Source: Nitrospira sp. | Lineage (GTDB): Bacteria; Nitrospirota; Nitrospiria; Nitrospirales; Nitrospiraceae | NCBI GenBank assembly: GCA_005116745.1 | Contig: SWDS01000006.1 | Span: 669,222 to 733,221, forward strand | Reading direction: 5' to 3' | DNA: 64,000 nt | Shown: piece by piece, positions 23,422-57,586 of the stretch | How positions within the stretch are numbered: the first letter of the stretch is position 1 | Layout of the letters: every line of letters starts with the position of its first letter | Notes under the pieces: model-generated | Told to the model about the DNA's origin: nothing | The model's input: the letters and a program-made list of their open reading frames with translations, nothing else | Database searches by the model: none | Made by a program: the position numbers and the translations under genes

Positions 23422-23440
23422 TTGCAAGAAGAGTGTCTTG

Positions 23441-23510
23441 TCCGAGCAGGCTGCCCTCCGGCTCGGATCAGCGTGGGACGGAGGCGCACCTCCCTTGGCC
23501 TCCGCCCCGC
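23441..23510 (+). repeat. Double-hairpin module, copy 1
   Basis: Hairpin one pairs TCCGAGC (23441-23447) with GCTCGGA (23461-23467). Hairpin two pairs GCG.GGG.CGGAGG with CCTCCGCCCCGC (23471-23510). The same two-hairpin order occurs at 30301 and 36193 and in variant form at 36465. Here it ends the first thioredoxin transcript and may act as a terminator or carry another RNA role. Confidence 0.6.
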
Positions 23511-23521
23511 ACTTTCTCAGC

Positions 23522-25944: not shown

Positions 25945-26500
25945 AACACGCGATTTGCTGAGTGGTCTATTTCTTTCCGGGTGTCTGCTGACTCTTGACG
26001 CCGGCGCTTCGCTACATGCTGCTACCGCAGCGAGCGATCCCTTTGCCGCGCTGCGTGTCACACGAATCACGGCTGGTGCACCGATCGCAGCGTTCGACCT
26101 CCAGGGGCTCGATGGCGGAACGGTCCACTCCAAAGAACTGGCAGGGAAGGTCGTACTCCTGAACTTCTGGGCGACGTGGTGCGGGCCTTGTAAAGAGGAA
26201 ATGCCCTCGCTTGCCAAACTCCAGTCACAGTTCGATCCCACGCAGTTTCAGGTCGTGACGATTACCACGGACATGCATCCCTTAGGGATCAAGCAGTTTC
26301 TCGATCATCTGGGCATCCGACTGCCCGTGCTGTTCGATCAGCATGAAGACGTTTCGAGGTCCTTCATGGTGCGGGGTTTGCCGACGACCGTCCTCATTAC
26401 ACAAGACGGTCGAGCTATTGGTCGTGCCGTCGGACCTCGAGCCTGGGATAGTGAAGAGTCAGCCGCGCTGGTGCGGCATGTCCTTGAAGGCATGCCATGA
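25934..26500 (+). CDS. TlpA-type periplasmic thioredoxin (second)
   Basis: A 188-residue exported thiol oxidoreductase. After a signal segment (LFLSGCLLTLDAGASLHA) come FDLQGLDGGTVHSKELAGKV, the active site WATWCGPC, and the cis-Pro region RGLPTTVLI. It overlaps the propeller gene upstream and the small His/Cys gene downstream by 11 and 4 bases, so the three are probably translated together. A plausible job is to keep the CxCC propeller or the small Cys protein reduced for metal loading; this is inferred from the overlap only. Confidence 0.88.
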   Translation: MDRKTRDLLSGLFLSGCLLTLDAGASLHAATAASDPFAALRVTRITAGAPIAAFDLQGLDGGTVHSKELAGKVVLLNFWATWCGPCKEEMPSLAKLQSQFDPTQFQVVTITTDMHPLGIKQFLDHLGIRLPVLFDQHEDVSRSFMVRGLPTTVLITQDGRAIGRAVGPRAWDSEESAALVRHVLEGMP

Positions 26501-26802
26501 AGCGTTGGTTCGCACCACTGGTTGTCGGGATGGTCCTGCTCTACAGCGTGCTTGCAGTAGGGGCGGCAGGCTGTCTCTTCATGCCGAGAGACAAGGCGGA
26601 TCATGCTCACCACGGTTCTTCTCATGCCGGCCACTCCATGTTTTGTGCCTGGGCCTGTCAGGTAAATCCAACGGTCGGCATTCATGCCACCGCACCAGCC
26701 CTCGTCAGCATTATCTTCGTGACGATGCAGCGGCTGGTGAGCGCACCCCCCCAAGCCCGTCTCGTTAGCACGGTTTCTCGTTCTCGCGCGCCGCCTCGCT
26801 AA
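26497..26802 (+). CDS. Small secreted His/Cys protein, DUF2946-like (paralogue 2)
   Basis: A 101-residue protein: signal segment (PLVVGMVLLYSVLAVGAAGC), His patch (DHAHHGSSHAGH), CAWACQ, and C-terminal SRSRAPPR. It shares the CAWACQ and RAPP features with the genes at 29857 and 35736. Its start overlaps the thioredoxin stop (ATGA). It stands directly before a TonB-dependent receptor gene, the same order as at 29857. Metal binding in the periplasm is inferred from the His and Cys content. Confidence 0.62.
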   Translation: MKRWFAPLVVGMVLLYSVLAVGAAGCLFMPRDKADHAHHGSSHAGHSMFCAWACQVNPTVGIHATAPALVSIIFVTMQRLVSAPPQARLVSTVSRSRAPPR

Positions 26803-26907: not shown

Positions 26908-29271
26908 ATGTTTGGAGGGGTACGAGCGTTTCGAGTGGGATATACGATGGCAGTTGGTTTAGTCGCGTTGTTGGCAGTCGGAGGCGAAGGAATCGCGCAA
27001 GAAGCGCCTTCTGCCGATCCGTCCGCCTTGCCGCGTGAGAGAGAGCTGCGCGATCAGCTCAAGACCATTCTGCAGGAATTGGACGAGTTACAGCAGAAAA
27101 AAGATTCGACGAAACCGGAAGCGGAGCGCCAACCCATCATCAAGGAGAAGAAGGTCGAGTCGCCTTCCGCAGAGGCCGAAATGGTCACTCCCACTGAAAC
27201 ACAACCGGATTTCGATCTGTCTGATATGAGCATCGTCAGCAAGCGTCTACAGAAGAGACCGGAAGGTGTCTCGCTTTCCGCGACGCTTCCTTCTGAAACA
27301 GAGTCGCAGCCGTCCAGAACCATGAAGGAATCCATGGAATCACTTCCCGGTGTGGTGCTGCGGCAGGCCAACGGGCCTCGCGACTTCAGCATGATGATCC
27401 GTGGGCAGGGCGCCAAGACGACCTTTGCTATTCGGGATATCAAGGTCTACGAAGACGGATTCATCCAGACCCAATCCGACGGCCTTTCGCGGCTCGACAT
27501 TCATGATCCGTGGTTCATGCGAAGCGTGGAAGTGATTCGAGGCGCGTCCTCCTCCCTGTACGACAATTATGCGTTGGGTGGGATGGTCCACTTCCGCACC
27601 AGGCGAGGCAGCGACATTCGCGGGCTGGAGACCTTCTTTTCGGGCGGGTCCTATGGATATCAGAAGTACGGGGTTGCCATCGGTCAGGAAACGGAGAAGT
27701 TCGATATCGCCATGTTCGGGAGTCATTCATCGGAAGACGGCTATATCAGGCACAGCAATTTCAGCACCCAAACACTCAACTTCAATGTTCGCTACAAGAT
27801 CGATGACCGGCAGAATTTCTACTTCAAGGCCATCACCAATTGGCTCAACACGAAAGTACCGACGAGACTCACGCAGAATCAGTTTTTTTCCGATGAGCGG
27901 CAGGCCGGCGGTGCTCAGACAACGTGTACGCCTGGAACGTTCAGCGGCGGCTGCGCCAATGCGCTTTTGCTCAATCAAAGTCGGGTCGATCGGCGCACGA
28001 TTGTCGGCGGAATCTACGAGCGGCAGATCGATGCGAATACCGTCTTGACCGTCGAGGCGGATTACGACGTCAAGGATATCCAGCAGTCATTTTCGCAAGT
28101 GAGCGAGAACACGAACCCCAACTACAAGAGCTATGCCGATTTACGTCATGACGGTAAGTTGGGGGCCTTGCCTTTGCGGAGCTATGTGGGTTTCTTCGTC
28201 AATCAAATGGAGCAGAAGGGCAACTCCTTCCAGAATCTGGCGGATAGCTTTGGGACCAAAGGGACGTTGATCCAGAACAGCCGTGGGTCCATTTTCAATA
28301 TCGGTGGCCGTATCCGCGAGGAATTGGAATTCTTGCCGAACTGGATCTTGGCGGTTGGGCTCGGGTTTGAACAGTCTCGCCTCAGCGTGCATGCCACGAA
28401 CTACGATGCGACCGGTGCGTTGGCTTCACGCTCGAGCGCGAACCGCACCTTTTCCAACTGGGCACCAGAAGGGTCAATCACCTGGAAACCGTCACCTGAC
28501 TACCGCTATTGGATCAGGGCGTCGACCGGGTACGGCATCCCACAATTCGCTGCCCTGCTGCGTGATCCCATCACAGGGCAACCTGGCACCAACTTTAGCT
28601 TGAAGCCACAGAAAAACCTGAACTTGGAAATCGGCACGGAGATGAAGCTGCATCCGACGTTGTTGGTCCATGTCGCTGCGTTTTACACCTTTTATAAAGA
28701 CGAAATCATTACGCAGGTTATTTCCGGGAATAACACGGCTTCAGTGAATGCCGACTCTTCCCGGTACCGCGGAGTCGAAGTCTTCGCCGATTGGCGGCCG
28801 GTGACGGGGCTGCGGGTCTCCGGCGCCTATACACATATCGACTCGGAGTACATTAATTTCTCGGATCGGACGGCTGCCGGATTCCTGGTCCGTGATGGAA
28901 AACATGTGCCGAATGTGCCGACCGACATCTTGAACGGCAAGCTGGAGTACTACCATGCGCCGGCGGGGTTGGGCGCGTGGATCGAAGGCAACTATTCCAA
29001 CAGCTATTTCTTGAATAACAGTAATACGTTTGGATTTCCCTCCTATGTGATCGGGAACGTCAATGTGTACAAGAATATCGAAATTCCAAAATCGTCATGG
29101 TTCCGATTCGCGAAAGTGTTTATCGAAGTCGATAACGTAGCCGATACGAAATATGCCGCCTCTGGACAGGTCATCGGTGGTGAAAATCATGCCGCGGCTG
29201 CAGGCCAACAGATTTTCTTCGCTGGATACGGACGGGCAATTTACGGCGGTGTCACGCTTGGGCTCTTTTAG
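26908..29271 (+). CDS. TonB-dependent outer-membrane receptor 1
   Basis: A 787-residue receptor. A signal peptide is followed by an unusual Glu/Lys/Gln-rich coiled-coil-like stretch (LRDQLKTILQELDELQQKK, about residues 45-80) before the plug domain (MIRGQGAKTTFAIRDIKVY, VEVIRGASSSLYDNYALGG). The 22-strand barrel then ends with an aromatic residue (GVTLGLF), as needed for Bam recognition. The substrate is not evident; neighbours suggest a metal or metallophore. A good ribosome site (GGAGGGAG) precedes the start. Confidence 0.88.
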   Translation: MFGGVRAFRVGYTMAVGLVALLAVGGEGIAQEAPSADPSALPRERELRDQLKTILQELDELQQKKDSTKPEAERQPIIKEKKVESPSAEAEMVTPTETQPDFDLSDMSIVSKRLQKRPEGVSLSATLPSETESQPSRTMKESMESLPGVVLRQANGPRDFSMMIRGQGAKTTFAIRDIKVYEDGFIQTQSDGLSRLDIHDPWFMRSVEVIRGASSSLYDNYALGGMVHFRTRRGSDIRGLETFFSGGSYGYQKYGVAIGQETEKFDIAMFGSHSSEDGYIRHSNFSTQTLNFNVRYKIDDRQNFYFKAITNWLNTKVPTRLTQNQFFSDERQAGGAQTTCTPGTFSGGCANALLLNQSRVDRRTIVGGIYERQIDANTVLTVEADYDVKDIQQSFSQVSENTNPNYKSYADLRHDGKLGALPLRSYVGFFVNQMEQKGNSFQNLADSFGTKGTLIQNSRGSIFNIGGRIREELEFLPNWILAVGLGFEQSRLSVHATNYDATGALASRSSANRTFSNWAPEGSITWKPSPDYRYWIRASTGYGIPQFAALLRDPITGQPGTNFSLKPQKNLNLEIGTEMKLHPTLLVHVAAFYTFYKDEIITQVISGNNTASVNADSSRYRGVEVFADWRPVTGLRVSGAYTHIDSEYINFSDRTAAGFLVRDGKHVPNVPTDILNGKLEYYHAPAGLGAWIEGNYSNSYFLNNSNTFGFPSYVIGNVNVYKNIEIPKSSWFRFAKVFIEVDNVADTKYAASGQVIGGENHAAAAGQQIFFAGYGRAIYGGVTLGLF

Positions 29272-29496: not shown

Positions 29497-29748
29497 ATGC
29501 TTATGACGGATAAAGCAAGCAGAGCGTTGACTGGCACCAAGGAAAAAACATTGCTGCGAGTGGGAGAAGCTGCTGCTGTGCTCTCAGTCAGTCGCTGGAC
29601 GATCTATCGATGGGTAGAGGAAGGGCGATTACGAGGGACAAAGATTGGCAAGGGCAGTGTGCGCATTTTTCGCGATTCAATCACAAGTTTGATTGAGGCC
29701 AATCAGAGTGATATGGCCGGTGCATGGCAGAGCGCAAAGCATTCATAG
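29497..29748 (+). CDS. Excisionase-type helix-turn-helix DNA-binding protein
   Basis: An 83-residue protein. LRVGEAAAVLSVSRWTIYRWVEEGRLRGTKIG is a MerR/excisionase-type winged helix motif (residues about 20-52), followed by VRIFRDSITSLIE. A very strong ribosome site (AAGGAGGTG) precedes the ATG. No integrase or att site is visible near it, so it is more likely a small transcription regulator than an excisionase. It sits between the two receptor modules. Confidence 0.75.
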   Translation: MLMTDKASRALTGTKEKTLLRVGEAAAVLSVSRWTIYRWVEEGRLRGTKIGKGSVRIFRDSITSLIEANQSDMAGAWQSAKHS

Positions 29749-29783: not shown

Positions 29784-29812
29784 GTAGCATCCGTGAGCAA
29801 CCGTCGGTAGAC
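29784..29812 (+). promoter_or_regulatory. 29 bp conserved upstream motif, copy 1
   Basis: The pattern GTAGYAT, four variable bases, then TGAGCA, two variable bases, CGTMGGTAGAC also occurs at 34891-34919 and 35681-35709. Each copy lies 27 to 97 bases before a gene for a small exported protein. Here it is 45 bases before the ATG at 29857. It could be an alternative sigma factor promoter or an operator. Confidence 0.55.
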
Positions 29813-29856
29813 GGCTCCTCATCAGTGAGGTAAAAAACGACACTGTGGTGAGGTGT

Positions 29857-30198
29857 ATGGCTCGTTCTAATATGTCCCGATTGTGTTTGAGTGTTGCCGG
29901 GCTCGTGGCCATAGCCTATGGCGCGCTGCTTGTGATGGCGATGAGTTGTGTGCTCGCCCATGCGGATCGGTCTCAGCGTCACCAACATCACCACGATGAT
30001 CAAGGATCATCCACGCAGACCCTACTCTGTGCGTGGGCATGTCAAGCGACAACAGATACCGCCGTCGCGGTTGGTCTCCCCTCCGCTGTCGTGGGGATGA
30101 TCATCGGACTGACCGATCTTATTCCCAGCCAACCTGTTCTCTCGACACATTCTTCTGTCATACGGTCTCGTGCACCTCCATCCATCGCTATCTCTTAG
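29857..30198 (+). CDS. Small secreted His/Cys protein, DUF2946-like (paralogue 3)
   Basis: A 113-residue protein with a signal segment (VAGLVAIAYGALLVMAMSC), the shared VLAHADR, a His patch (HQHHHDD), CAWACQAT, and C-terminal IRSRAPPS. It is clearly homologous to the gene at 35736 along its whole length (LAHADR, then His patch, then SSTQ, then CAWACQAT). GAGGT lies close before this ATG; a GTG at 29845 would add four residues. It precedes receptor 2, with a double-hairpin module in between. Confidence 0.65.
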   Translation: MARSNMSRLCLSVAGLVAIAYGALLVMAMSCVLAHADRSQRHQHHHDDQGSSTQTLLCAWACQATTDTAVAVGLPSAVVGMIIGLTDLIPSQPVLSTHSSVIRSRAPPSIAIS

Positions 30199-30300
30199 TG
30201 TCAGGCTCGGATAAGCGATTCCCGCTAGACTCATCGTCCCACGTACGCGTATCCAGCCGCGCACATTTCTTTGCAACGCCAAGATAGCTGTTCGTGTTGT

Positions 30301-30376
30301 CCGAGCCGGCGGCCCTCCCGCTCGGATGAAAGCGCGGGGCGAAGGTTGCTTGCCTCCTCCTTTGCCCCGCCCTTTT
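30301..30376 (+). terminator. Double-hairpin module copy 2, strong terminator form
   Basis: Hairpin one pairs CCGAGC (30301-30306) with GCTCGG (30320-30325). Hairpin two pairs GCGGGGCGAAGG (30334-30345) with CCTTTGCCCCGC (30359-30370), 12 pairs including one G-T, followed by CC and six T. That is a textbook rho-independent terminator. It separates the small His/Cys gene from receptor 2. The loop holds TTGCTTGCCTCCT. Confidence 0.75.
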
Positions 30377-30419
30377 TTAGATGCCTCTAACGGAGATGAA
30401 TAATCATGAGGAGCAGCGC

Positions 30420-32762
30420 ATGAAAGCAGTTGTTGTTTGTGATCGTACGACATTCACCTGTCCGGCACGTAGGGGCTTACGGTGGCGCTGGGTCATCGGC
30501 CTTGCGATCGTGGCCCTGTGGCAATCGATTGTTGTTCCTGTTGCTATTTCGGCGGATGGAGCCTCACCAGAAGAAACCATATCGGGGACGGAAGGTGATT
30601 CGAAGAAAGAGGCCGGCGAGTTTACACATGACACGGGCGAATCGGAGGCGCCTATTACCGCGCCGCTCATTGTTGTGCAAGGACAACGCATAGGTCCGGA
30701 AGGAACCGGGACCTTGAATTTGCAAGAACAGAGTCGCGGGAGTTCGCGCTTGGGACTGACGCTGCGAGAGATTCCAGCCAGCGTCGAAGTGATTACCCAG
30801 CAGACAATGGAGGAACGGGGTTTGAGAACGGTCTCGGAGGCGATCCAAGCGGCGACCGGGGTGACAGTGAATGATCTCGGCGTGAATCCAGGCACGTTCT
30901 CGATGCGGGGGTTCGCCAATAACCAGATTCGTCTGTTGTTCGATGGGTTATCGCTCGGACCGGCAGGGTTTGTCACCCGACCGCGCGATTCATGGAATCT
31001 TGATCGAATTGAGATTTTAAAAGGGCCGGCATCCGTCTTGTACGGCGAAGGAGCGGTGGCGGGGATGGTCAACTTGGTCACCAAGCGACCGCTGCGTGAG
31101 GCGGCTGGGCACGAGGCATTCGTGTCCTACGGATCGTTCAATACGATCCGTGCCGGTGTTGGAAGCGGAGGACGGTTGTTGACGGATAAGCTGCACTACC
31201 GCGTGGATCTCAGCTATCAAAACTCCGACAGTGCCATGGGCGTCCAGCGCACGCCGTATACCTACTGGAATTTTACGAGCGGACTGCTCTACGACGTAAC
31301 CCCGCGCTTGAACTTCGAACTCTCGTTCGATATTGCGTATGATCGCGCGAATCCGTATTGGGGAACGCCGCTGGTCTCATCAGCCTTCGCCACGCACGGC
31401 GTGAGCGGCATCGTAAGTACGCCGGACGGTCGCACCATCGATGCCCGGATGCTTCGTCAGAACTACAACGTGCAAGACAGCGATATGAGCGCGTGGACCA
31501 CCTGGACGAAGTTGAAAACGACGTGGGCGCCTACCGACTTTCTCCAACTCCGCAATCAAACGTATTTATACACGGCCAAACGAGACTGGATGAATGCCGA
31601 AACCTATCTCTTCAACGCGACGACAGGATTGGTCGATCGCGACAGGTTTTTGGTGAAACATGATCAGTATACCGTCGGAGATCGTTTCGAGCTTCAGATC
31701 AATCATCCCATCGGGATGTTTCAGAATCGCTTCGTGAGCGGCATCGATTTCAGCTACATCAATTTCACACGCCCGAGCTTCTTTACGGCAAACGGCGGCA
31801 GCGTCGATCCGTTTTCTCCTGTTGCCGGTCTGTTCGGCGGCGGGCTGACCGCGACTCAGACGGCGAAGATTCTCGACATCGCGGTTTTTGCGGAGGATCA
31901 ATTCAGCGTCACGGATACGCTCAAACTGGTGGCCGGCGTGCGGACCGAGTATATCAATCTCACACGAGAGTTTTTTACAGCCACCGGCGCGTCTAATCCC
32001 GCGCAAAGCTTTGACCATGATTTTACACCAACGACCTGGCGTGCGGGTGCGGTGTACGATGTGCTGCCGCAGGTGACGTTGTACGGACAATATGCGACGG
32101 CGGCCGACCCGGTCGGCGGCAGCTTGTTTGGCCTGCGCAGTACGCAGCTCTTTGACTTGGCCACTGGCAATCAGTGGGAGGTCGGTGCAAAGGGACAATT
32201 CTACGATAACCGTGTGCAGTGGACTCTGGCGTACTTCGATATTGTTCGGAAGAACATCTTGACTCAGGTCTCGCAGACCGAATCCGTGAATGTCGGGCGG
32301 CAGTCCTCCAAGGGAGTTGAGTTTGACGTGGCCCTGCGCCTCACGGATGCCTGGCGGGTGCAGGGCAATGTGACATTCCTCTCGGCCAACTTTGATGAAT
32401 TCTCCCAACTGTCGGGTGGCAATCTCGTCTCACGCAACGGTAATCGGCCGTTTGAGGTGCCGCAAACAGTCGCCAATCTCTGGACGATCTATCGAGTTCC
32501 AACACCGATTCCGTTCGATATAGGCGCAGCTTGGAGATTTGTCGGGGATCGGTACAATGACGCCGCAAATACGATCAGGCTGCATAGTTATATGACGGCG
32601 GATGCGTGGGTATCTGTGCCGTACAAACAGTTTGTGGTCACGCTCCGAGCACGCAATCTAGCGGATACAACCTATGCAATTTACGGTTCTACGTTTTATC
32701 CGGATCAGCTGCTGATCGGCGCGCCGAGGACGCTCGAAGCCAGTGTGATGGCACGATTCTGA
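30420..32762 (+). CDS. TonB-dependent siderophore receptor 2 (FhuE/FecA-like)
   Basis: The product of about 780 residues has a signal region, a plug domain (PASVEVITQQTMEERG, FSMRGFANNQIRLLFDGL, IEILKGPASVLYGEGAVAGMV) and a 22-strand barrel with the siderophore-receptor ending (YAIYGSTFYPDQLLIGAPR, SVMARF). The last residue is Phe. The ATG at 30420 has AGGAG 6-7 bases upstream; earlier ATGs at 30381 and 30396 lack this. The following PepSY membrane protein supports ferric-siderophore uptake, as in many Fur-type loci. Confidence 0.88.
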   Translation: MKAVVVCDRTTFTCPARRGLRWRWVIGLAIVALWQSIVVPVAISADGASPEETISGTEGDSKKEAGEFTHDTGESEAPITAPLIVVQGQRIGPEGTGTLNLQEQSRGSSRLGLTLREIPASVEVITQQTMEERGLRTVSEAIQAATGVTVNDLGVNPGTFSMRGFANNQIRLLFDGLSLGPAGFVTRPRDSWNLDRIEILKGPASVLYGEGAVAGMVNLVTKRPLREAAGHEAFVSYGSFNTIRAGVGSGGRLLTDKLHYRVDLSYQNSDSAMGVQRTPYTYWNFTSGLLYDVTPRLNFELSFDIAYDRANPYWGTPLVSSAFATHGVSGIVSTPDGRTIDARMLRQNYNVQDSDMSAWTTWTKLKTTWAPTDFLQLRNQTYLYTAKRDWMNAETYLFNATTGLVDRDRFLVKHDQYTVGDRFELQINHPIGMFQNRFVSGIDFSYINFTRPSFFTANGGSVDPFSPVAGLFGGGLTATQTAKILDIAVFAEDQFSVTDTLKLVAGVRTEYINLTREFFTATGASNPAQSFDHDFTPTTWRAGAVYDVLPQVTLYGQYATAADPVGGSLFGLRSTQLFDLATGNQWEVGAKGQFYDNRVQWTLAYFDIVRKNILTQVSQTESVNVGRQSSKGVEFDVALRLTDAWRVQGNVTFLSANFDEFSQLSGGNLVSRNGNRPFEVPQTVANLWTIYRVPTPIPFDIGAAWRFVGDRYNDAANTIRLHSYMTADAWVSVPYKQFVVTLRARNLADTTYAIYGSTFYPDQLLIGAPRTLEASVMARF

Positions 32763-32791
32763 GATGATCGACGAGGGAGAGCCAGATTGCG

Positions 32792-34003
32792 ATGCCAACC
32801 GAAGGGATGAGACGATGCCGACATTTCTGGGTTACCGTGCATCTTTGGTTGGGACTATCGGCCGGGGCGGCGTTGGTCCTGATTGGGCTGGCCGGCAGCA
32901 TCCTGGTGTTCTGGCCTGAAATTGACGAGTGGCTGAATCCCCATCTCCTGCAGGTCGAACCGCACCGAGACGGGCAGTCCTCGTTTTTCCCCATTGATGA
33001 TATTTGGGCAGCTGTGATGCAGGCGATGCCACCGGGTTCGAAGCCGACTTCGGCCTATTATCCGCGGCATGATGCGGTTGCCTACCACTTCAATGTTCTA
33101 GTGCCGTCCGTGCCGGAGCCACAAACCAGGGTTGATTTTTCCCTCCATCACGTGTTCGTCAACCCCTATACGGGCACAGTAACCGGCGTTCGACTCGTTC
33201 GCCCGGCTGGTTGGGCTGGAATGTTCCCACGGACGTTTATTGAGTTTGTCTTTGGGGTGCACTATGCGCTCTTGCTTCCGCGAACAGGGGATCCGCCGTT
33301 CGGGGATACGGTCGTGGGGATTCTTGGGTTGACGCTCATCATCTCGCTATGCTCGGGAATGTATCTCTGGTGGACGACCGGTGGGCCATGGCGATCGGCA
33401 TTGACGATCAACTGGCAGGCGCATATCCGCCGTGTCAATTTTGATATGCATAAAGCAGCGGGACTTGCATGTCTCTGTGTCCTGCTGGGACTTTTTGTGT
33501 CCGGGGTGTATTTGAATCTGCCGAGGCCATTTCACTCGGTGGTCCGGATTGTCTCTCCGACAATCGATCGCGTTGAGTTGCAATCCAGAGTGCCGGCCTC
33601 TCCCCAGCCGATATCTCTGGGACATGTAGTCGACATCGTGCGAGCGCGGCTTCCAGAAGGGCGCATAGACAGATTGTATTTCCCACGAAAGCCTACGGGG
33701 ACGTACACGATTTGCCATAAGAACATCGAGGGACTCAGCCTCTTCCTGACCCGTCGTTGCGTTGTGATAGATCAATATAGTGGTGAGATCCTCCATATCG
33801 AGAGTCCCGATCATGGAACAGTAGGAGAATACTTTATCCAGTGGCAATGGCCGCTTCACAGCGGCCAAGCGTTTGGGTTGACCGGTCGGTGGGTCGTATT
33901 CGTAGCAGGACTCATCTGTCCCGTGCTGTTCGGCACAGGATTCTATCTCTGGTGGCGGAAACGGGCAGGGCGGATTCGTGCGCGTTCTATGGGATCTCTG
34001 TGA
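32792..34003 (+). CDS. PepSY-associated inner-membrane protein (PiuB-like)
   Basis: A 403-residue protein with four main membrane segments. Features are FWVTVHLWLGLSAGAALVLIG near the N terminus, ASYYP-like periplasmic PepSY segments, LTLIISLCSGMYLWWTTGG, the conserved VNFDMHKAAGLACLCVLLGLFVSGVYL, and a final ICPVLFGTGFYLWWRK. Conserved His residues in the helices suggest haem or metal handling; members are proposed to act as ferric-siderophore reductases. It follows receptor 2 by 29 bases. Confidence 0.85.
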   Translation: MPTEGMRRCRHFWVTVHLWLGLSAGAALVLIGLAGSILVFWPEIDEWLNPHLLQVEPHRDGQSSFFPIDDIWAAVMQAMPPGSKPTSAYYPRHDAVAYHFNVLVPSVPEPQTRVDFSLHHVFVNPYTGTVTGVRLVRPAGWAGMFPRTFIEFVFGVHYALLLPRTGDPPFGDTVVGILGLTLIISLCSGMYLWWTTGGPWRSALTINWQAHIRRVNFDMHKAAGLACLCVLLGLFVSGVYLNLPRPFHSVVRIVSPTIDRVELQSRVPASPQPISLGHVVDIVRARLPEGRIDRLYFPRKPTGTYTICHKNIEGLSLFLTRRCVVIDQYSGEILHIESPDHGTVGEYFIQWQWPLHSGQAFGLTGRWVVFVAGLICPVLFGTGFYLWWRKRAGRIRARSMGSL

Positions 34004-34059
34004 TCGGCTATAGATAATCGGCAGAATGGTCAAACGGAGAAAGGTGAAGAAACTACAAC

Positions 34060-34485
34060 ATGGAAAGTTTGAAATATGCGGTGGATTACGGGGTGATCGG
34101 GTTGCTGACGTTGCTGGGATGCTGGGCCCTGATCGTGGCGTTGGAGCGGTGGCGGTTCTATGCGCAGGTGGACTCGGCACAGTTTGCCACGCCGCAGACC
34201 TATGAAATTGCTTTGACGAAGCGGCTGGTCGTCATCGGGACGATTGCCGCGAATGCCCCCTATATCGGGCTGTTGGGAACTGTGCTGGGTATCATGCTCA
34301 CGTTCCATACGATGGGCACCTCCGGAACACTGGCTGTCAGTTCGATCATGATCGGTCTTAGCTTGGCGCTCAAGGCCACGGCCGTGGGACTACTCGTCGC
34401 GATTCCCTGCGTCGTCATGAACAACGTCCTGCGCCGGCGGGTGAGTGAACTGCTCACGCTGTACAAGGTTCAGCATGGAGCGTGA
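34060..34485 (+). CDS. exbB: ExbB/TolQ/MotA-type proton channel
   Basis: A compact 141-residue form with three membrane helices: GVIGLLTLLGCWALIVALER, then APYIGLLGTVLGIMLTFHTM, then GLSLALKATAVGLLVAIPCVVM. It lacks the N-terminal extension of E. coli ExbB and matches the short forms paired with stand-alone TonB. It assembles with ExbD (overlapping by 11 bases) to power TonB. Confidence 0.88.
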   Translation: MESLKYAVDYGVIGLLTLLGCWALIVALERWRFYAQVDSAQFATPQTYEIALTKRLVVIGTIAANAPYIGLLGTVLGIMLTFHTMGTSGTLAVSSIMIGLSLALKATAVGLLVAIPCVVMNNVLRRRVSELLTLYKVQHGA

Positions 34486-34849
34486 GGTCAATCAGATCAA
34501 CGTCGTTCCGCTTGTCGATGTGATGCTCGTGTTGCTGGTGATCGTGCTGACGACTGCCACCTTCATTTCGACAGGGCAGGTGCCGGTCAATCTGGCGAAG
34601 GCGAAGGAAACCAACGCACGAAAAGACACGCCGATCATGGTCACTCTCACCGCGGAGGGAGGTCTGTTTCTCAACGATCGCGCTGTGGCACCAGGTGGAT
34701 TGGCTTCCCTTCTGGCATCTCATCAGAAAGAATCGCCGGTCGTGGTTCGGGCCGACCGGGTCACGCTGCTCGAACGATTCGTCGGACTCGTGGACGAGAT
34801 CCGCAGCCTCGGGTTTCACCAGGTGAGTTTGGAGGTAGTCAAGTTATGA
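34475..34849 (+). CDS. exbD: ExbD/TolR-type stator protein
   Basis: A 124-residue protein: one membrane helix with the conserved Asp (NVVPLVDVMLVLLVIVL), then a periplasmic domain ending FHQVSLEVVKL. I start it at MEREVNQIN (34475), which overlaps the end of exbB; the frame is open to 34445 but that would extend further into exbB. It completes the TonB-ExbB-ExbD system of this island. Confidence 0.88.
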   Translation: MEREVNQINVVPLVDVMLVLLVIVLTTATFISTGQVPVNLAKAKETNARKDTPIMVTLTAEGGLFLNDRAVAPGGLASLLASHQKESPVVVRADRVTLLERFVGLVDEIRSLGFHQVSLEVVKL

Positions 34850-34890
34850 GGCCACGCGCCGGTGGGCGGTCTCATCATACGGTGCGATGT

Positions 34891-34919
34891 GTAGTATCCG
34901 TGAGCACGCGTAGGTAGAC
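34891..34919 (+). promoter_or_regulatory. 29 bp conserved upstream motif, copy 2
   Basis: GTAGTATCCG, then TGAGCACGCG, then TAGGTAGAC; 23 of 29 bases agree with copy 1 (29784) and with copy 3 (35681). It lies 97 bases before the AOC-like gene, within an AT-rich stretch likely to hold its promoter. Confidence 0.5.
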
Positions 34920-35015
34920 AAGCAGTCGAAGTAAGCCTATAAAAATGCACCGTATATCACAAATATTACACAAACTATATTCGTGCACGTTATACCCATC
35001 ACACTGGAGGTCAGA

Positions 35016-35573
35016 ATGATTCGGCGTAGATCCTCGGCTGGTAGAGCACTGCTCACGGTTTGTTCCATCGTCGTGGCCACATGTGGGTTCGGCGCATCTT
35101 GGGTATTGGCAGACGATAGGTCCGACAGAGAACGAGGAGATAGGAAGACCATTGTCCTTACGGGAACTCACCAGGAGGGAACTTCAGGGTTAGGGACTCA
35201 AATTAAAGAACCGAGCACTACGAACGGAGTAGGAAACCAAAACCTCTTCAGCGACGATCTTCGCTATCAGAAGAACGGCGAATTAGCCGGACGGAACAGC
35301 GCCGTCTGTACCACCACAAGTCCATTCGGCAACCCTCCTGATATCCGTCCAGCTCATCGCGGCGCGAATCTCTGCACCCTTGGGTTTGTGTTGCTCGACA
35401 GGGGAAAGATCACGGTTTCAGGCATCGTGACCGATGAGGACTTTGCGGCAGGGAGCATTGTGCTTCCGATCGTGGGAGGAACCGATGAGTTTCAGCACGC
35501 TCGAGGTGAGTACGAGCTCAAGTTTGGCGCAAGCCATGGTGTTCCTGGCACCATCACGTTCAGGCTGAAGTAG
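35016..35573 (+). CDS. Secreted AOC/dirigent-like beta-barrel protein
   Basis: A 185-residue exported protein (signal LLTVCSIVVATCGFGASWVLA). After it come IVLTGTHQEG, LFSDDLRYQKNGELAGRNSAVC, ANLCTLGFVLLDRGKITVSG and IVGGTDEFQHARGEYEL. This order (GxxhxFxDDL, a Cys-flanked middle, GGTxxFxxARGE) fits the allene-oxide-cyclase/dirigent barrel family found in plants and scattered bacteria. Bacterial function is unknown. GGAGGT 5 bases before the ATG fixes the start; the frame opens at 34983. Confidence 0.6.
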   Translation: MIRRRSSAGRALLTVCSIVVATCGFGASWVLADDRSDRERGDRKTIVLTGTHQEGTSGLGTQIKEPSTTNGVGNQNLFSDDLRYQKNGELAGRNSAVCTTTSPFGNPPDIRPAHRGANLCTLGFVLLDRGKITVSGIVTDEDFAAGSIVLPIVGGTDEFQHARGEYELKFGASHGVPGTITFRLK

Positions 35574-35585
35574 TTTGCTGTAAGC

Positions 35586-35622
35586 CACGGGCTCCTGAAA
35601 CTCATTGAATCAGGGACCCGTG
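35586..35622 (+). terminator. Hairpin after AOC-like gene
   Basis: CACGGG (35586-35591) pairs with CCCGTG (35617-35622), and inner TCCTGA with TCAGGG-region bases. It begins 13 bases after the stop codon. A short pyrimidine run follows (TTCTC). Confidence 0.5.
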
Positions 35623-35680
35623 ACTTCTCGGCCTAAGCCGAGTACGACCGCCAGCTGCCGTACATGGCAGGTCTTAATGC

Positions 35681-35709
35681 GTAGCATTGATGAGCAAGCG
35701 TCGGTAGAC
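35681..35709 (+). promoter_or_regulatory. 29 bp conserved upstream motif, copy 3
   Basis: GTAGCATTGA, then TGAGCAAGCG, then TCGGTAGAC. It lies only 27 bases before the start of paralogue 4 (35736). The close spacing, with the 45 bases of copy 1, suggests it sits at or near the transcription start. Confidence 0.55.
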
Positions 35710-35735
35710 AGGCCGTCGTCGTTTACGTATAGACT

Positions 35736-36107
35736 ATGATCATAAGAATGATGCAGTACGTGAAACATCAAAATTGCTCCTTGCCTATTATCTCCGTCAC
35801 CGGGTGTGTTGTGCTGATCTATATTGTGCTTTTGGCGATGAGCGCCGGCTGTGCCCTCGCTCATGCCGACAGGGTTCAGCACCAGCAACACCATGGTCAA
35901 GAAAGTTCATCCACGCAAAACGTATTCTGTGCCTGGGCTTGTCAGGCTACGGCAGATGTCGGCGTAGCTGTGGGGTCATCATTGGCGGTCGCCGAGCTGG
36001 TACGTTGGCATGAAGATATTCCCCTTAGTAGACCGGTTTCTTTCTCGTCTCTTTCTATATTCCATTCTCGTGCGCCACCTTCGACCTTCTTCGTTCGGCT
36101 TGGATAA
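35736..36107 (+). CDS. Small secreted His/Cys protein, DUF2946-like (paralogue 4)
   Basis: A 123-residue protein with signal segment (VTGCVVLIYIVLLAMSAGC), the shared ALAHADRVQ, His patch (HQQHHGQE), SSTQNVFCAWACQAT and C-terminal FHSRAPPST. It is the closest relative of paralogue 3 and also follows the conserved 29 bp motif and precedes a double-hairpin module, so the unit motif-gene-hairpins appears duplicated as a block. Confidence 0.65.
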   Translation: MIIRMMQYVKHQNCSLPIISVTGCVVLIYIVLLAMSAGCALAHADRVQHQQHHGQESSSTQNVFCAWACQATADVGVAVGSSLAVAELVRWHEDIPLSRPVSFSSLSIFHSRAPPSTFFVRLG

Positions 36108-36192
36108 GCACGGCGGATAATCTTGTTCTATTCCGCTGGTCCTTATTCAGCCTGAGTGCAGTTATTCATAACAAAGATATTTGGATACATCG

Positions 36193-36262
36193 TCCGAGCA
36201 GGCGGCCCTCCGGCTCGGACTAAGCGCGGGGTGAAGGTTGACTGCCTCCTCCTTTACCCCGC
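36193..36262 (+). repeat. Double-hairpin module, copy 3
   Basis: Hairpin one pairs TCCGAGC (36193-36199) with GCTCGGA (36213-36219). Hairpin two pairs GCGGGGTGAAGG (36226-36237) with CCTTTACCCCGC (36251-36262). Compared with copy 2, one C-G pair has become T-A, a compensatory change that supports a conserved stem. It follows paralogue 4. Between here and the next module (36263-36460) I see nothing. Confidence 0.65.
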
Positions 36263-36464
36263 CCTATATTTTCAGCAAGCCTAATGTACCGGCAATACGA
36301 GTCAGCGCCTGGCTCTTATGGTCTTCACAGGGCAGGACTGTACCTCAATGCCGTGTGCTGGTGAGCCTGATGTTGAGGATACTTGTGATCATCGGCATGT
36401 ATCTGTGATGGAAGAAATGATTGAATGATTCCGATCCATTCGAGAAGTATCGAGCTATCGATGT

Positions 36465-36534
36465 CCGGTCGAGCCGCCCCCTCGCTCGGACCGATCCGGG
36501 GCGCAGGTGTTGCCTCCGTCTACCTCCGCCCCGG
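36465..36534 (+). repeat. Double-hairpin module, variant copy 4
   Basis: Hairpin one pairs GGTCGAGC (36467-36474) with GCTCGGACC (36484-36492), one bulge. Hairpin two pairs CCGGGGCG.AGGT (36496-36508) with ACCTCCGCCCCGG (36522-36534). The loop holds GTTGCCTCCGTC, like the TTGCCTCC loop of the other copies. Sequence differs but layout is the same. It lies in the 730-base gene-free stretch before smbP. Confidence 0.5.
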
Positions 36535-36559
36535 CTCATTTCTGTCGAAGATGTCTAAC

Positions 36560-36604: not shown

Positions 36605-36657
36605 GGATAATCAAAGGAAACGGGTCTGGTAGTTGCGCACTCTTCTTCCAGGCCTGA

Positions 36658-36694
36658 CCAGGGAGTCGGTGGTTGCCTCCTTCCGACTCCCTGG
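36658..36694 (+). repeat. Strong 12 bp hairpin with TTGCCTCC loop
   Basis: CCAGGGAGTCGG (36658-36669) pairs perfectly with CCGACTCCCTGG (36683-36694). The loop TGGTTGCCTCCTT shares TTGCCTCC with the double-hairpin modules. There is no T-run directly after it (GCCCTTCGG), so termination is uncertain. Confidence 0.45.
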
Positions 36695-36763
36695 CCCTTC
36701 GGGGACACACAGCACAATCCATTTCCTAAAGTTGTGTGCGTGCGACGCTTGGGACGATGATGT

Positions 36764-36791
36764 TTGCCTGAGGGCATACTCTGTGTATACT
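36764..36791 (+). promoter_or_regulatory. Putative sigma-70 promoter of smbP
   Basis: TTGCCT (36764-36769) and TATACT (36786-36791) are separated by 16 bases and lie about 45 bases before the smbP start. The spacing and the -10 hexamer are good for a housekeeping promoter. No metal-regulator site is recognised. Confidence 0.45.
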
Positions 36792-36836
36792 TGTCCCAGG
36801 GTTCGGACGTCATCAATCAAACCATGTGGAGGGGGT

Positions 36837-37136
36837 ATGACACAATTGAAAGCTGGTGTTGTTGCGGTTGCGGTCTGCAGTCTTCTCGCGGGTGGGGTTT
36901 CGAGTGTCGCATTTGCCAAGGGCGCTGGGCATGTGCAGGAAACCATCAAGCACGCGAAGGAAGGAATTGCGCACGAGAAAGAGGCCATTAAGCATCTGGA
37001 AGAAGCGATACAGGGCAGCAACGACCCTCACGCGAAGGAAGCGCTTGAACATGCCAAGGAATCAATGAAGCATGCGGAGGAGTCCCTCGCGCATGCCGAA
37101 CAAGCTTCGGCGAAGCCAAAAGGCAAGGCGAAGTAA
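36837..37136 (+). CDS. smbP: SmbP-type small metal-binding protein
   Basis: A 99-residue exported protein (signal VVAVAVCSLLAGGVSSVAFA). The mature part is entirely helical, made of short amphipathic repeats with regularly spaced His: VQETIKHAKEGIAHEK, AIKHLEEAIQ, ALEHAKESMKHAEESLAHAE. This matches the SmbP family described in Nitrosomonas europaea, a periplasmic binder of copper and other divalent metals. AGGGGG stands just before the ATG; the frame extends upstream to 36633 but without signal or coding character. Confidence 0.82.
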   Translation: MTQLKAGVVAVAVCSLLAGGVSSVAFAKGAGHVQETIKHAKEGIAHEKEAIKHLEEAIQGSNDPHAKEALEHAKESMKHAEESLAHAEQASAKPKGKAK

Positions 37137-52275: not shown

Positions 52276-52833
52276 ATGGCGGAGGCGAGAGCCAACGGGA
52301 TCATTCAACGACTCTTGGAGAACGAGTCCGCCTTCAGGCAGTTTATTCGACGCAGAGTAGGCGAAGCGACTCTCGTGGACGATATCCTTCAGCAAAGCCT
52401 TACGCGAGCGGTTGCTAGCGCTCATTCATTGGATAAGGAAGAAAGCGCGGTTGCCTGGTTTTACCGCATTCTTCGCCATGCGGTTGCCGATTATTATCGT
52501 GCATTGGAAGCTGAGGCCCGTCGTAATCAAGCCTTCCTGGAAGAATCGACCATTTCCGGTGATCATCAAGAGCCGCCGCTGGATGAGGTACGGGCTACCG
52601 CATGCGTCTGCCTTCACCGTCTCCTTCCGGGTCTCCGCGGGAACTACGCGGAACTCATTAAGCGCATCGATCTCGACGGTGAATCGCCGGAACTGGTGGC
52701 GAAAGATCTCAAGGTATCACGGAACAACCTTACCGTTCGCTTGCACAGAGCTCGACAGTCCTTACGAAACTCCCTTGAAGGTGCCTGTGGGATCTGTAGT
52801 AAACACGGCTGCCTCAACTGCACTTGCGGATAG
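52276..52833 (+). CDS. ECF sigma factor with C-terminal Cys-rich domain, CorE-like
   Basis: A 185-residue sigma factor: region 2 (VDDILQQSLTRAVASA, VAWFYRILRHAVADYYR) and region 4 (LPGLRGNYAELIKRIDLDG, VSRNNLTVRLHRARQSLR), followed by a 17-residue tail CGICSKHGCLNCTCG. This tail matches the Cys-rich domain of CorE-type sigma factors of myxobacteria, which sense copper or cadmium/zinc directly and need no anti-sigma factor; I see none here. Known CorE targets are a copper P-type ATPase and a multicopper oxidase, exactly the next two genes. Confidence 0.82.
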   Translation: MAEARANGIIQRLLENESAFRQFIRRRVGEATLVDDILQQSLTRAVASAHSLDKEESAVAWFYRILRHAVADYYRALEAEARRNQAFLEESTISGDHQEPPLDEVRATACVCLHRLLPGLRGNYAELIKRIDLDGESPELVAKDLKVSRNNLTVRLHRARQSLRNSLEGACGICSKHGCLNCTCG

Positions 52834-53003
52834 CCACCTCACACGCTTACACGCATTGCGCCTCTTTCCCTCGTTTTCTTAGAGTTTTCAACGTGTTCTT
52901 CTCGCCCATCGTATTCTCTGTAATATTTGACGGCCTGTTCCGTCTGTAATTCTGAACGCGACAATAAGTAACCGTACCGGATAAAATGAAAGGAGTAAGA
53001 CAC

Positions 53004-55739
53004 ATGATTCATAAATCGTCTAGCGGCTGCTGCGGGACGCAGCATGAAGGACATGACCGCATGACTGAGGATAGTCAAGATACCCAAGGTCTGTCGCACA
53101 CCCACGTTAAGCAGGAGATCGACCCCATCTGCGGAATGACCGTCGATCCGGCCAAGGCGGCCGGTCGGTATGACCATAAAGGCACGACCTACTATTTCTG
53201 TGGGACATCCTGCCTGGAACGATTTCGCGCCGACCCCGACCGTGCGCTGAGCAAGAAACCACTGAATCTGATCACGATGCCTGCTCCACGGAAACCGTTG
53301 CCGATGATGGTGCAGGCGACGCCGGGTGAGATCGATCCCGTGTGCGGCATGACGGTGCAACCAGCCACTGCAGCCGGTTCCTATGAATACCGAGGAAAGA
53401 CGTATTACTTCTGTGCCACTCGATGTCTAGAAAAGTTCAGAGCCGATTCCGACTATTATCTGACCCCACCGGACCAGCGCATTCCAAAGCCGATGCCTGC
53501 CCCAGCCGGCGGTAGCGTCCAGTATGTCTGCCCGATGGATCCAGAGGTGTCGGAAACCAAACCGGGCGCCTGCCCTGTCTGCGGGATGGCGCTGGAGCCA
53601 GCGGACGTGACTGTTGCGAGCACGCGGACTGAATATACCTGTCCCATGCATCCGGAAATTGTGCAGGCTGATCCTGGGAGTTGTTCGATCTGCGGGATGG
53701 CCTTGGAGCCTCTTACGGTGACGATGGAGGAGGCTAATCCTGAGCTGGTCAATATGACTCGCCGATTTTGGCAGAGCGTTGTGCTTGGCTTACCCATCCT
53801 GGCGTTGATGATTTCCGAGATGATGCCGAATCGGCCGTTGCAGCACTTCTTTTCAGCCAGAGCATTGGTCTGGTTTCAGTTCCTGTTGGCGACGCCGGTG
53901 GTGTTCTGGATCGGGTGGCCGTTGTTTGAACGAGCGTGGGCCTCGCTCGTCAATCGCCACCTTAATATGTTTACCCTCATCGGTCTTGGCACCGGTGCGG
54001 CCTATCTCTACAGCGTCGTGGCGACTCTCGCGCCAGGCCTGTTCCCTGATTCGTTCCGTGGTCACGGCGGAGAGCTCGCCGTCTACTTTGAACCAGCGGT
54101 TGCCATCATCGCGCTGGTTTTGCTGGGGCAGGTGCTGGAATTACGGGCGCGGAGTCGAACCAGTAGCGCTCTCAAGGCGCTCTTGGGGCTGGCACCGAAA
54201 ACAGCGCGGATTGTCCGGGCTGATGGCCGCGAGGACGATATTCCATTGGACCAGGTCCAGGTGGGGGACCGATTACGCGTCCGACCAGGTGAGAAGATAC
54301 CTGTGGATGGTGTAGTCGTGGATGGGACGAGTGCCGTTGACGAATCGATGGTCACCGGTGAATCGATTCCCGTGGAAAAGCGAGCAGGGCAGAAAGTGGT
54401 GGGCGCGACGGTCAACGGAACGGGGAGTTTCTTCATGCGGGCCGAGCGAGTCGGACGCGAGACGTTGCTCTCGCAAATTGTGCGCATGGTCAGCGAGGCC
54501 CAGCGTACCCGGGCGCCGATTCAACGGCTAGCTGATGTCGTGGCTGGGTATTTTGTGCCGATTGTGATCCTTGTGGCGATCATCACCTTCGTGATTTGGG
54601 CGGTCTACGGCCCGGAACCTCGGATGGCCTATGCCTTGCTCAATGCGGTTGCGGTGTTGATCATCGCTTGTCCCTGTGCATTGGGGCTTGCGACGCCCAT
54701 GTCGATCATGGTCGGCACTGGACGTGGCGCGACGGCAGGGGTGTTGATCCGAAACGCGGAAGCGCTGGAGACTTTGGCCAAGGTGGATGTGCTGGTCGTT
54801 GATAAAACGGGAACACTCACGGAAGGCAAACCGCGTCTGATGACGGTGGCTCCTCTCCCGAATATGACAGAAATCGACCTGCTTCGGCTTGCAGGTGGAT
54901 TGGAACAGAGTAGCGAGCATCCGCTGGCTGGCGCAATTGTGTCAGGGGCTCGCGAGAAAGGCCTCGCGTTGGCTGGCGCGAAAGATTTTCGTTCGCTTAC
55001 GGGGAAGGGTGTTATGGGAACAGTGGAGGGTCGCTCGATAGCCGTGGGGACGCGACCCTTTTTCAACGAATTAGGTATCGATGCCGAATCGTTGGTTGCT
55101 CAGGCTGAACCGCTCAGGCAGGAGGGGCAGACGGTGATGTTCGTCGCCATCGATGGCAAACCAGCGGGGTTGCTGGGCGTGGCTGATCCGGTCAAGTCCA
55201 CTACGCCGGAGGCCATCGATGTATTGCATCGTGAAGGACTGCGGATCGTCATGTTGACCGGCGACAATCGGACGACCGCTGAGGCGGTGGCGCGCAGGCT
55301 CCAGATCGACGAAGTGCAGGCCGATGTCTTGCCCGAGCAAAAGGCAGCGGTCATCAAGCGGTTCCAAGCAGACGGACATGTCGTGGCTATGGCGGGAGAT
55401 GGGATCAACGATGCGCCGGCTTTGGCGCAGGCGCACGTGGGAATTGCCATGGGAACCGGGACCGATGTGGCGATGGAAAGCGCGGGGGTCACGCTGGTCA
55501 AGGGAGATCTCCGGGCCATCGCGAGAGCGCGCCGGTTGAGTCGAGGGACGATGAAGAACATTCGCCAGAACCTTTTCTTCGCGTTCGTGTACAACACGCT
55601 GGGGATTCCAATCGCCGCCGGGATTCTCTATCCATTCGTCGGGGTCCTCTTGAGCCCCATGATCGCCAGTGCCGCGATGACGTTCAGTTCCGTGTCGGTG
55701 ATTGCGAACGCCTTGCGGCTACGCAAACTAGCTCTCTAA
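53004..55739 (+). CDS. copA: Copper-translocating P1B-type ATPase with two YHS and two metal-binding domains
   Basis: A 911-residue exporter. N terminus: Cys/His patch ([13 protein letters not shown]), YHS domains at about residues 38-82 and 108-152 ([16 protein letters not shown]), then two CPMxPE...CxxCGM zinc-ribbon-like domains (about 172-233). The ATPase core has [10 protein letters not shown], the membrane CPC (residues 556-558), phosphorylation site DKTGTLTEG (Asp near 600), the HP motif [11 protein letters not shown] and [16 protein letters not shown] and the HP motif indicate Cu(I) or Ag(I). The usual ferredoxin-like HMA domain is absent. AAGGAG fixes the start; an ATG at 52986 lacks a site. 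Confidence 0.93.
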
Positions 55740-55767
55740 CAACTCTTGGGCCTTCCGCTCATCGAAG

Positions 55768-57567
55768 ATGAAGAACAAGGTCATATCGAGGCGCCTCCTA
55801 CTGAAGCGAGCAGGAGTGTTGGGGCTACTCGCCGCGGTGCAACCGCTTCTTCCTTCCTGTGCGAATCATCCGTTACTCCGTGCCGCTCATCCCGATCCAG
55901 ATTCTTCGACGCTGAGTGGTGAAGTGATCGACCTGATGATCAGTGAACGGTCCTTCACAATTGATGGGCGAACTGGGACTGCCACGACGATCAACGGGGC
56001 GATCCCTGGTCCGCTCATTCGTTTGAAGGAAGGCCAAGACGTAATCCTCAACGTCACGAACCATCTCAAAGAGGTCTCCTCGATTCACTGGCACGGAATC
56101 CTATTGCCTTCGCACATGGATGGCGTGCCGGGGGTCAGTTTTAACGGCATTGAGCCGGGAACTACATTCACCTACCGATTTCCCATCAAACAGAGCGGGA
56201 CCTATTGGTATCACAGCCACTCGGGTGGTCAGGAATTACAGGGTATGTACGGGGCGATGATTCTCGACCCCATCGAGCCGGAGCCCTTTCGGTATGACCG
56301 AGACCATATCGTGATGCTTTCTGAGTGGAGTGATGAGTCCGCTGAGGTCATGTTGGGCAACCTCAAGAAGTTCTCCGGCTATTACAACTTCCAAAAGCGC
56401 GCCGCTCAGGAGTTTCGTTCAGACGCAGCGAGATGGGGATTCTGGCCGGCCCTGAAGAATTATATGATGTGGGACGAGATGCGAATGGATCCGACGGACT
56501 TTGCCGACGTGACCGGATCCACATTCACGTTTCTCATGAACGGCCTTCCACCCGCCGGCAACTGGACGGGTCTGTTTCGACCCGGCGAACGAGTGCGGCT
56601 GCGTTTCATCAATGCTGCCGCGATGACGTTTTATGATGTTCGCATTCCTGGTTTGACGATGATGGTGGTGCAGGCTGACGGCCAGAACATCCAGCCGGTT
56701 ACTGTTGAAGAGTTTCGTTTTGGCCCTGCAGAAACCTACGATGTCATTGTCCAGGTAACCGAGGACCGTGCATACACGATCTTTGCGGAAACCATGGATC
56801 GGAGTGGCTATGCGCGGGGAACTCTTGCCCCTCGACCTGGAATGGAAGGGGAGAGTCCTGAGCGTCGTGCCCGTCCTCTTCGAACTATGGAGGACATGGG
56901 AATGATGGGACATGGCAACGGCCATAATGACCATACCGTGATGAGGTCCGGTACGAATCATCATGACACGATGCACGGTCAAGGTATGCAACATGGCCAG
57001 GAGGGTGCTGGTCGAGACCGTTCACCGATCCTAGGTGCGATACCGGTTAAGCATGGCCCCGATCACCACGGAACCGGTAACCAAACGGTGGCTGAATACG
57101 CTCAAAACAGGATGCACGAACCGGGAAGAGGATTTGAGCAGAGTTCCAGGCGTGTCCTTGTTTATACTGACTTGAAGAGCCTCGTTCCCTATCAAGACCA
57201 GCGAGCGCCGGAACGGGAGATCGAGCTTCATCTCACCGGCCACATGCAACGCTATATGTGGTCATTCGACGGCAAGAAGTATTCGGATGCGCCGGAGCCC
57301 ATTCGTGTTCGCGACGGCGAGCGCCTGCGGCTTACGTTCGTCAACGATACGATGATGGAACATCCCCTCCACCTGCATGGGATGTGGATGTACCTCGAAA
57401 ACGGTTCAGGGGCGTACCTTCCACGCAAACATACCGTCGTGGTCAAGCCAGCCGAACGGCTGTCCGTTGCGATCACTGCCGACGCCTCTGGGCCTTGGGC
57501 ATTTCACTGCCATCTCCTTCTGCATATGGAAGCGGGAATGTTCCGTATTGTTGAGGTCTCTGCCTAG
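55768..57567 (+). CDS. pcoA: Multicopper oxidase of the copper-resistance type (PcoA/CopA)
   Basis: A 599-residue Tat-exported oxidase (signal SRRLLLKRAGVLGLLAAVQ). Copper sites: HWHG near residue 107, YHSH near 150, HPLHLHGM near 532 and HCHLLLHMEAGM near 580, covering type 1, 2 and 3 centres. A Met/His-rich insert (about residues 375-425: MEDMGMMGHGNGHNDH and HDTMHGQGMQHG) is typical of PcoA and binds Cu(I). It would oxidise Cu(I) to the less harmful Cu(II) in the periplasm. It follows the ATPase by 28 bases. Confidence 0.92.
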   Translation: MKNKVISRRLLLKRAGVLGLLAAVQPLLPSCANHPLLRAAHPDPDSSTLSGEVIDLMISERSFTIDGRTGTATTINGAIPGPLIRLKEGQDVILNVTNHLKEVSSIHWHGILLPSHMDGVPGVSFNGIEPGTTFTYRFPIKQSGTYWYHSHSGGQELQGMYGAMILDPIEPEPFRYDRDHIVMLSEWSDESAEVMLGNLKKFSGYYNFQKRAAQEFRSDAARWGFWPALKNYMMWDEMRMDPTDFADVTGSTFTFLMNGLPPAGNWTGLFRPGERVRLRFINAAAMTFYDVRIPGLTMMVVQADGQNIQPVTVEEFRFGPAETYDVIVQVTEDRAYTIFAETMDRSGYARGTLAPRPGMEGESPERRARPLRTMEDMGMMGHGNGHNDHTVMRSGTNHHDTMHGQGMQHGQEGAGRDRSPILGAIPVKHGPDHHGTGNQTVAEYAQNRMHEPGRGFEQSSRRVLVYTDLKSLVPYQDQRAPEREIELHLTGHMQRYMWSFDGKKYSDAPEPIRVRDGERLRLTFVNDTMMEHPLHLHGMWMYLENGSGAYLPRKHTVVVKPAERLSVAITADASGPWAFHCHLLLHMEAGMFRIVEVSA

Positions 57568-57586
57568 CTAACGGGAGATTGGGCTG

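Follow-up and report, generated by a model that had tools for sequence, protein, structure and literature searches.

Direct-repeat promoter-operators in Nitrospira, probably read by an excisionase-type protein and probably linked to copper uptake

Response regulators bind head-to-tail repeats that overlap the -35 element, and class II operators of the PhoB/OmpR type are tandem repeats that overlap or even replace it. In Streptomyces, BldC binds head-to-tail to 9-bp direct repeats whose number varies (PMC5859096; PDB 6AMA and 6AMK). A cysteine motif and a RAPP sequence are the functional motifs of CruR, the copper-sensing upstream ORF of Bordetella (PMC9426467), and the same two functional motifs are present in CutF (PMC9973294). 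Here, we describe a Nitrospira sp. locus that combines features of these systems. We consider it highly likely that a motif repeated at this locus is the composite promoter-operator of a small regulon, probably devoted to copper acquisition, and that it is bound head-to-tail by the HTH protein encoded at 29497-29748.

In the window, that is, the whole 64,000-nucleotide stretch of DNA that was analysed, an earlier note had described a 29-bp motif occurring three times in front of small exported-protein genes. The three copies were found at the positions and on the strand (plus) that it gave, and its distances to the start codons were correct, with 26-96 bases intervening. The motif is conserved beyond chance (0 copies expected from 100 shuffles of the window), and the genome-wide search that had been proposed, run on the 3.86-Mb genome with up to 3 mismatches allowed, returned the window's three copies only. 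The consensus had to be corrected: written with a first gap of four free bases it matches nothing, while with a three-base gap (GTAGYATNNNTGAGCANNCGTMGGTAGAC) it fits all three copies exactly. The flanks, which had been called unrelated, all carry a -10-like hexamer 17 bp 3' of the motif (TAAAAA, TATAAA and TATAGA). As for the small exported proteins of the note, they are not of one kind: copies 1 and 3 precede CruR/CutF-like leader peptides and copy 2 precedes a 185-aa exported protein. The operator copies and their promoters are as follows:

29784-29813, plus strand: operator copy 1, units GTAGCATCCG (29784-29793), TGAGCAACCG (29794-29803) and TCGGTAGACG (29804-29813)
29808-29813 and 29831-29836, plus strand: copy 1 promoter, -35 TAGACG and -10 TAAAAA with a 17-bp spacer; downstream, the CruR-like gene 29857-30198
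34891-34920, plus strand: operator copy 2, units GTAGTATCCG, TGAGCACGCG and TAGGTAGACA
34915-34920 and 34938-34943, plus strand: copy 2 promoter, -35 TAGACA and -10 TATAAA with a 17-bp spacer; downstream, the 185-aa exported-protein gene 35016-35573
35681-35710, plus strand: operator copy 3, units GTAGCATTGA, TGAGCAAGCG and TCGGTAGACA
35705-35710 and 35728-35733, plus strand: copy 3 promoter, -35 TAGACA and -10 TATAGA with a 17-bp spacer; downstream, the CruR-like gene 35736-36107

The motif pattern was found in 38 of 79 congeneric genomes. We built a logo from 46 non-redundant aligned sites, taken from loci around motif copies in congeners, and it reads T-GTAGCATCCG-TGAGCANNCG-TCGGTAGACA, followed after 17 bp by TATARA. 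The conserved block consists of three direct repeats placed head-to-tail with a 10-bp step (GTAGCATCCG, TGAGCANNCG and TCGGTAGACA), the third of which overlaps a sigma-70 -35 box, TAGACA (5/6 match). The spacing of the logo, TAGACA-17-TATARA, lies within the 16-18 bp that separate sigma-70 hexamers. As a test of the -10 register, the sites were compared with TATAAT, a consensus from outside the data set: at least 4 of 6 positions matched at the exact 17-bp offset in 29 of the 46 sites and at any other offset in at most 9; at some sites the -10 is weak or shifted. A simple sigma-70 promoter scan did not list the three window promoters because it requires a T at the last -10 position. The number of units varies among sites (2, 3 or 4), and orthologous promoters differ by exactly one 10-bp unit with both flanks intact, L059, L041 and L078 having one more than L064 and L068. 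In the fetched loci, the operator matrix scored more than 6 bits at 97 places and the reversed matrix at none. The earlier note had offered an operator and an ECF-sigma promoter as alternatives: the first is well supported, and the second is not, as three 10-bp repeats with a sigma-70 -35 and -10 at 17 bp do not make a two-box ECF promoter. A mobile repeat lying in random positions was also excluded, because the copies are locked to gene starts and precede them in a fixed register with the -10.

The gene that ends 35 bp upstream of copy 1 encodes the probable reader of the motif, which was picked out by its HTH_17 and TIGR01764 matches, its co-occurrence with the motif and its fold:

29497-29748, plus strand: 83-aa winged-HTH protein of the HTH_17/excisionase family

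This protein exceeds the cut-offs of Pfam HTH_17 (43.2 bits vs 27) and of the curated excisionase model TIGR01764 (46.7 bits vs 28.8), and it falls below that of the BldC family model NF033787 (19.3 bits vs 77). Its AlphaFold model is a winged HTH with a core pLDDT of about 90-97. The predicted fold resembles that of Pukovnik Xis (4j2n, Z 9.1), which ranks first in the PDB in both sequence and fold comparisons, and that of DNA-bound BldC (6amk_B, Z 8.4, rmsd 0.9 Å over 51 residues). A sensor domain is absent, as in BldC.

Within the genus, the HTH protein was present in 37 of 38 motif-positive genomes versus 15 of 41 motif-negative ones (p = 2.5e-9). Where a site and an HTH gene share a contig, they always share the strand too (55/55). 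Of all 57 sites, 43 lie at most 2 kb from the gene, and the site positions fall into a few fixed layouts, most commonly immediately after the HTH gene or one gene before it. For the phylum (395 genomes), tallies made by hand from two listings gave the motif in 89 of 94 HTH-positive versus 8 of 301 HTH-negative genomes (p = 4e-72). A backward control pattern occurred in 11/94 and 14/301 of these genomes, respectively; the 8/301 is at chance level. On inspection, seven of the eight HTH-negative genomes held only poor two-mismatch matches, one of them (G299) in the form of a four-copy repeat, and the eighth (G153) held a real-looking site. Both G153 and G019 have a site without a clear HTH gene and, about 0.95 kb upstream of it, a weak and apparently decayed HTH match. 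Loci collected by the HTH protein alone carried the motif in 55 of 80 cases, and all 71 sites lay on the strand of the HTH gene; in the same 80 loci the reversed matrix found nothing and each of 40 column-shuffled matrices hit at most one locus. CruR-like genes were present in 69 of 79 genomes, 18 of which lack both the HTH protein and the motif, and the association persists within the CruR-positive genomes (p = 1.7e-7). Among the recurrent neighbours, no DNA-binding family other than HTH_17 was found. These results indicate that the 83-aa protein probably reads the motif; part of the association could be linkage, since a single gene cluster holds both the motif and the HTH gene.

Several clades of HTH paralogs have no recognisable motif within reach. 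Two-unit or 9-bp-shifted operator variants lie near some of these motif-less paralogs, and an alternative operator sought near the paralogs of the NKQLLRVGEAADVLAVS and LQNKRLL clades gave nothing clear. Such clades either read another site or act elsewhere. In the RLEGTKIGRGSLRVF clade (L051, L038, L106 and L108), a two-unit operator stands directly behind the paralog gene. Paralogs of clades NKQLLRVGEAADVLAVS and LQNKRLLRVDEAARLL are found in similar clusters where the operator is unrecognisable, which suggests that their specificity has changed. The relatives retrieved by the HTH protein come nearly all from Nitrospira or Nitrospirales, with a few from Candidatus Methylomirabilis. In two contigs of the latter (L158 and L182), a strong motif accompanies the HTH gene in the same orientation, and these copies suggest a transfer of the whole module between phyla.

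The genes around and behind the motif copies are the following:

26497-26802, plus strand: third CruR-like leader peptide, CAWAC at residue 50 and RAPP at 97, before the TonB-dependent receptor gene 26908-29271
29857-30198, plus strand: CruR/CutF-like leader peptide under copy 1, with a hydrophobic N-terminus, CAWAC at residue 58 and RAPP at 105
30420-32762, plus strand: TonB-dependent receptor of the siderophore-type subfamily TIGR01783, 3' of the copy 1 leader peptide
32792-34003, plus strand: PepSY_TM protein
34060-34485, plus strand: ExbB/TolQ-type proton channel
34478-34849, plus strand: ExbD/TolR-type protein
35016-35573, plus strand: exported 185-aa protein under copy 2, with weak dirigent/AOC-barrel similarity below cut-offs
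35736-36107, plus strand: CruR/CutF-like leader peptide under copy 3, CAWAC at residue 65 and RAPP at 112
36633-37136, plus strand: ORF with a small metal-binding protein (SMBP) domain and a probable start at ATG 36837; it follows copy 3 in the same orientation

The three leader peptides of the window share a distance of 47 residues from CAWAC to RAPP, and among 21 homologs C-x-W-x-C and the C-terminal R-x-P-P are invariant or nearly so. The Pfam DUF2946 scores of the three window peptides (20.3, 14.0 and 13.6 bits) are all below the gathering threshold of 23.7. The gene 26497-26802 has no motif copy in front of it and is preceded by a TlpA-like thioredoxin gene. Since the -10 of copy 3 ends at 35733, the real start of the leader peptide there may be ATG 35748 or 35751. 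The copy 3 transcript would start near 35740, just some 8-11 nt ahead of these ATGs, and this mRNA is possibly leaderless. The next gene was called a small exported CxWxC protein at 40 of 84 sites, its sequence cluster having 48 members; elsewhere, TonB, TonB-dependent receptors and ExbB are the other targets. Given the CruR-type peptides and the synteny, copper uptake is the likeliest function, and the copy 1 cluster and the motif regulon probably serve it. Against copper, the receptor 30420-32762 fits the siderophore subfamily model TIGR01783.

In this cluster, we also detected a two-hairpin RNA element:

30294-30381, plus strand: two-hairpin element between the CruR-like gene and the TonB-dependent receptor gene, TTTTTT after the second stem
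36187-36273, plus strand: two-hairpin element after the copy 3 CruR-like gene
23435-23521, 36458-36545 and 36621-36705: further two-hairpin elements

The element is about 88 nt long, with a conserved TTGCCTCCTCC loop that is anti-Shine-Dalgarno-like; some copies have a T run resembling that of a terminator. It stands after two leader peptides and in three more places in the cluster. The covariance model has compensatory changes in 9 of 20 pairs, and when searched against the whole genome it found five copies, all within this cluster. The element often lies 80-100 nt 3' of CruR-like ORFs. The model found similar clusters in relatives, where the element occurs in tandem, with four copies in L078. 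No Rfam match was obtained up to E = 1 (cmscan, window 20-56 kb). The leader peptide may act through this element as an attenuator.

From these observations a mechanism can be proposed. Like BldC, the HTH protein would line up head-to-tail on the three 10-bp repeats, with one subunit for each helical turn. The last subunit would lie on the -35 of the sigma-70 promoter and either act as a class II activator by recruiting RNA polymerase, the option that we favour, or block the polymerase. The transcript would then enter the CruR/CutF-like leader peptide, where copper would be sensed during the peptide's own translation, and the leader peptide would in turn determine how far the downstream genes for the TonB-dependent receptor, PepSY_TM and ExbBD are expressed.

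Activation is favoured because the repeats end in a fixed register at the -35 and extra units are added only upstream. That the HTH protein reads the motif as a repressor blocking the -35 is the strongest of the alternatives, though an unlikely one. The last unit does cover the -35, and this hexamer (5/6) and the -10 are decent sigma-70 elements; the register with the -35, fixed in nearly all sites, and the upstream-only growth of the array would suit an activator better.

We regard as improbable that an unlinked direct-repeat binder, for instance an OmpR/PhoB-type response regulator, reads the sites and that the HTH_17 gene is a mere neighbour. Membership in one cluster could produce the HTH-motif association, and response regulators also bind head-to-tail repeats overlapping the -35, as discussed for such repeats in PMC5859096. 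However, the motif is at chance level in the 301 genomes without the HTH protein, the association persists among genomes with CruR genes, and no other DNA-binding family recurs nearby. The repeats are even less likely to be excisionase or recombination arm sites of a mobile element: integrase and transposase families are absent among the recurrent neighbours and the scanned window proteins, and the sites are locked to the -10 box and gene starts, although the protein fits the excisionase family model and Xis proteins bind direct repeats. Least credible of all is the CorE-like ECF sigma factor 52276-52833, named in the earlier note as a candidate reader of the motif as its own promoter: it is encoded in the same window, both gene groups look metal-related, and its Cys-rich C-terminus and copper-related neighbours would fit, but it is refuted by the 16 of 38 motif-bearing genomes that lack it (several of them 99% complete), it is uncorrelated with the motif in the 79 genomes (present in 22/38 motif-positive and 18/41 motif-negative ones, Fisher p = 0.26), and three repeats with sigma-70 spacing are unlike an ECF promoter. 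The region 52276-58456, in which this CorE/SigZ-like factor with its Cys-rich tail (CGICSKHGCLNCTCG) adjoins genes for a copper-type, YHS/HMBD-domain P-type ATPase, a multicopper oxidase and CopB, is a separate copper-resistance cluster.

If the HTH protein of 29497-29748 binds the repeats, excisionase-type proteins, which are commonly classed as phage remnants, would gain a sharply defined operator and a candidate regulator open to testing, and would be linked to CruR-type copper-uptake clusters in Nitrospira, nitrogen-cycle organisms whose metal regulation is little known. A full-text search of the open-access literature turned up no paper that brings together three of the topics Nitrospira, CruR, BldC, excisionase and copper uptake. 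The natural promoters with 2, 3 and 4 units are a ready series for relating filament length to promoter output. More tentatively, these proteins might be a phylum-wide class of metal-uptake regulators: a length-adjustable BldC-like filament, with a subunit on each 10-bp unit and the last one on the -35, would activate sigma-70 promoters in series with a copper-sensing leader that is read out by a cluster-specific two-hairpin attenuator.

Compared with known systems, the operator is like those of the PhoB/OmpR class II type in that its tandem repeats overlap the -35, whereas the protein is of a different family and has no receiver domain. The HTH protein passes the cut-offs of the excisionases (TIGR01764, HTH_17; 4J2N), among which RdfS also activates promoters (PMC11963761); by contrast, no integrase was seen among the recurrent neighbours or the scanned window proteins, and the sites here are promoters whose consensus is sharp, while none was found for RdfS. 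With BldC it shares a small effector-less winged HTH of the same predicted fold and operators made of direct repeats in variable number. The BldC repeats are 9 bp long and AT-rich (AATTNNNNC), in contrast to the 10-bp step, GC-containing consensus and fixed register with the -35 found here. Downstream of the operator, the order of leader peptide, TonB-dependent receptor and PepSY_TM is that of CruR-CrtA-CrpH in Bordetella pertussis (PMC9426467, PMC12914433, PMC13038864), and the leader peptide has the Cys motif and C-terminal RAPP of CruR and CutF (PMC9973294). The receptor 30420-32762, which stands in the position of CrtA, is placed here in TIGR01783 only. Unlike the Bordetella operon, the Nitrospira unit includes ExbB and ExbD and has, as predicted, a dedicated DNA-binding regulator and operator added to it, and a two-hairpin element is found at the point where Rho is used in Bordetella.
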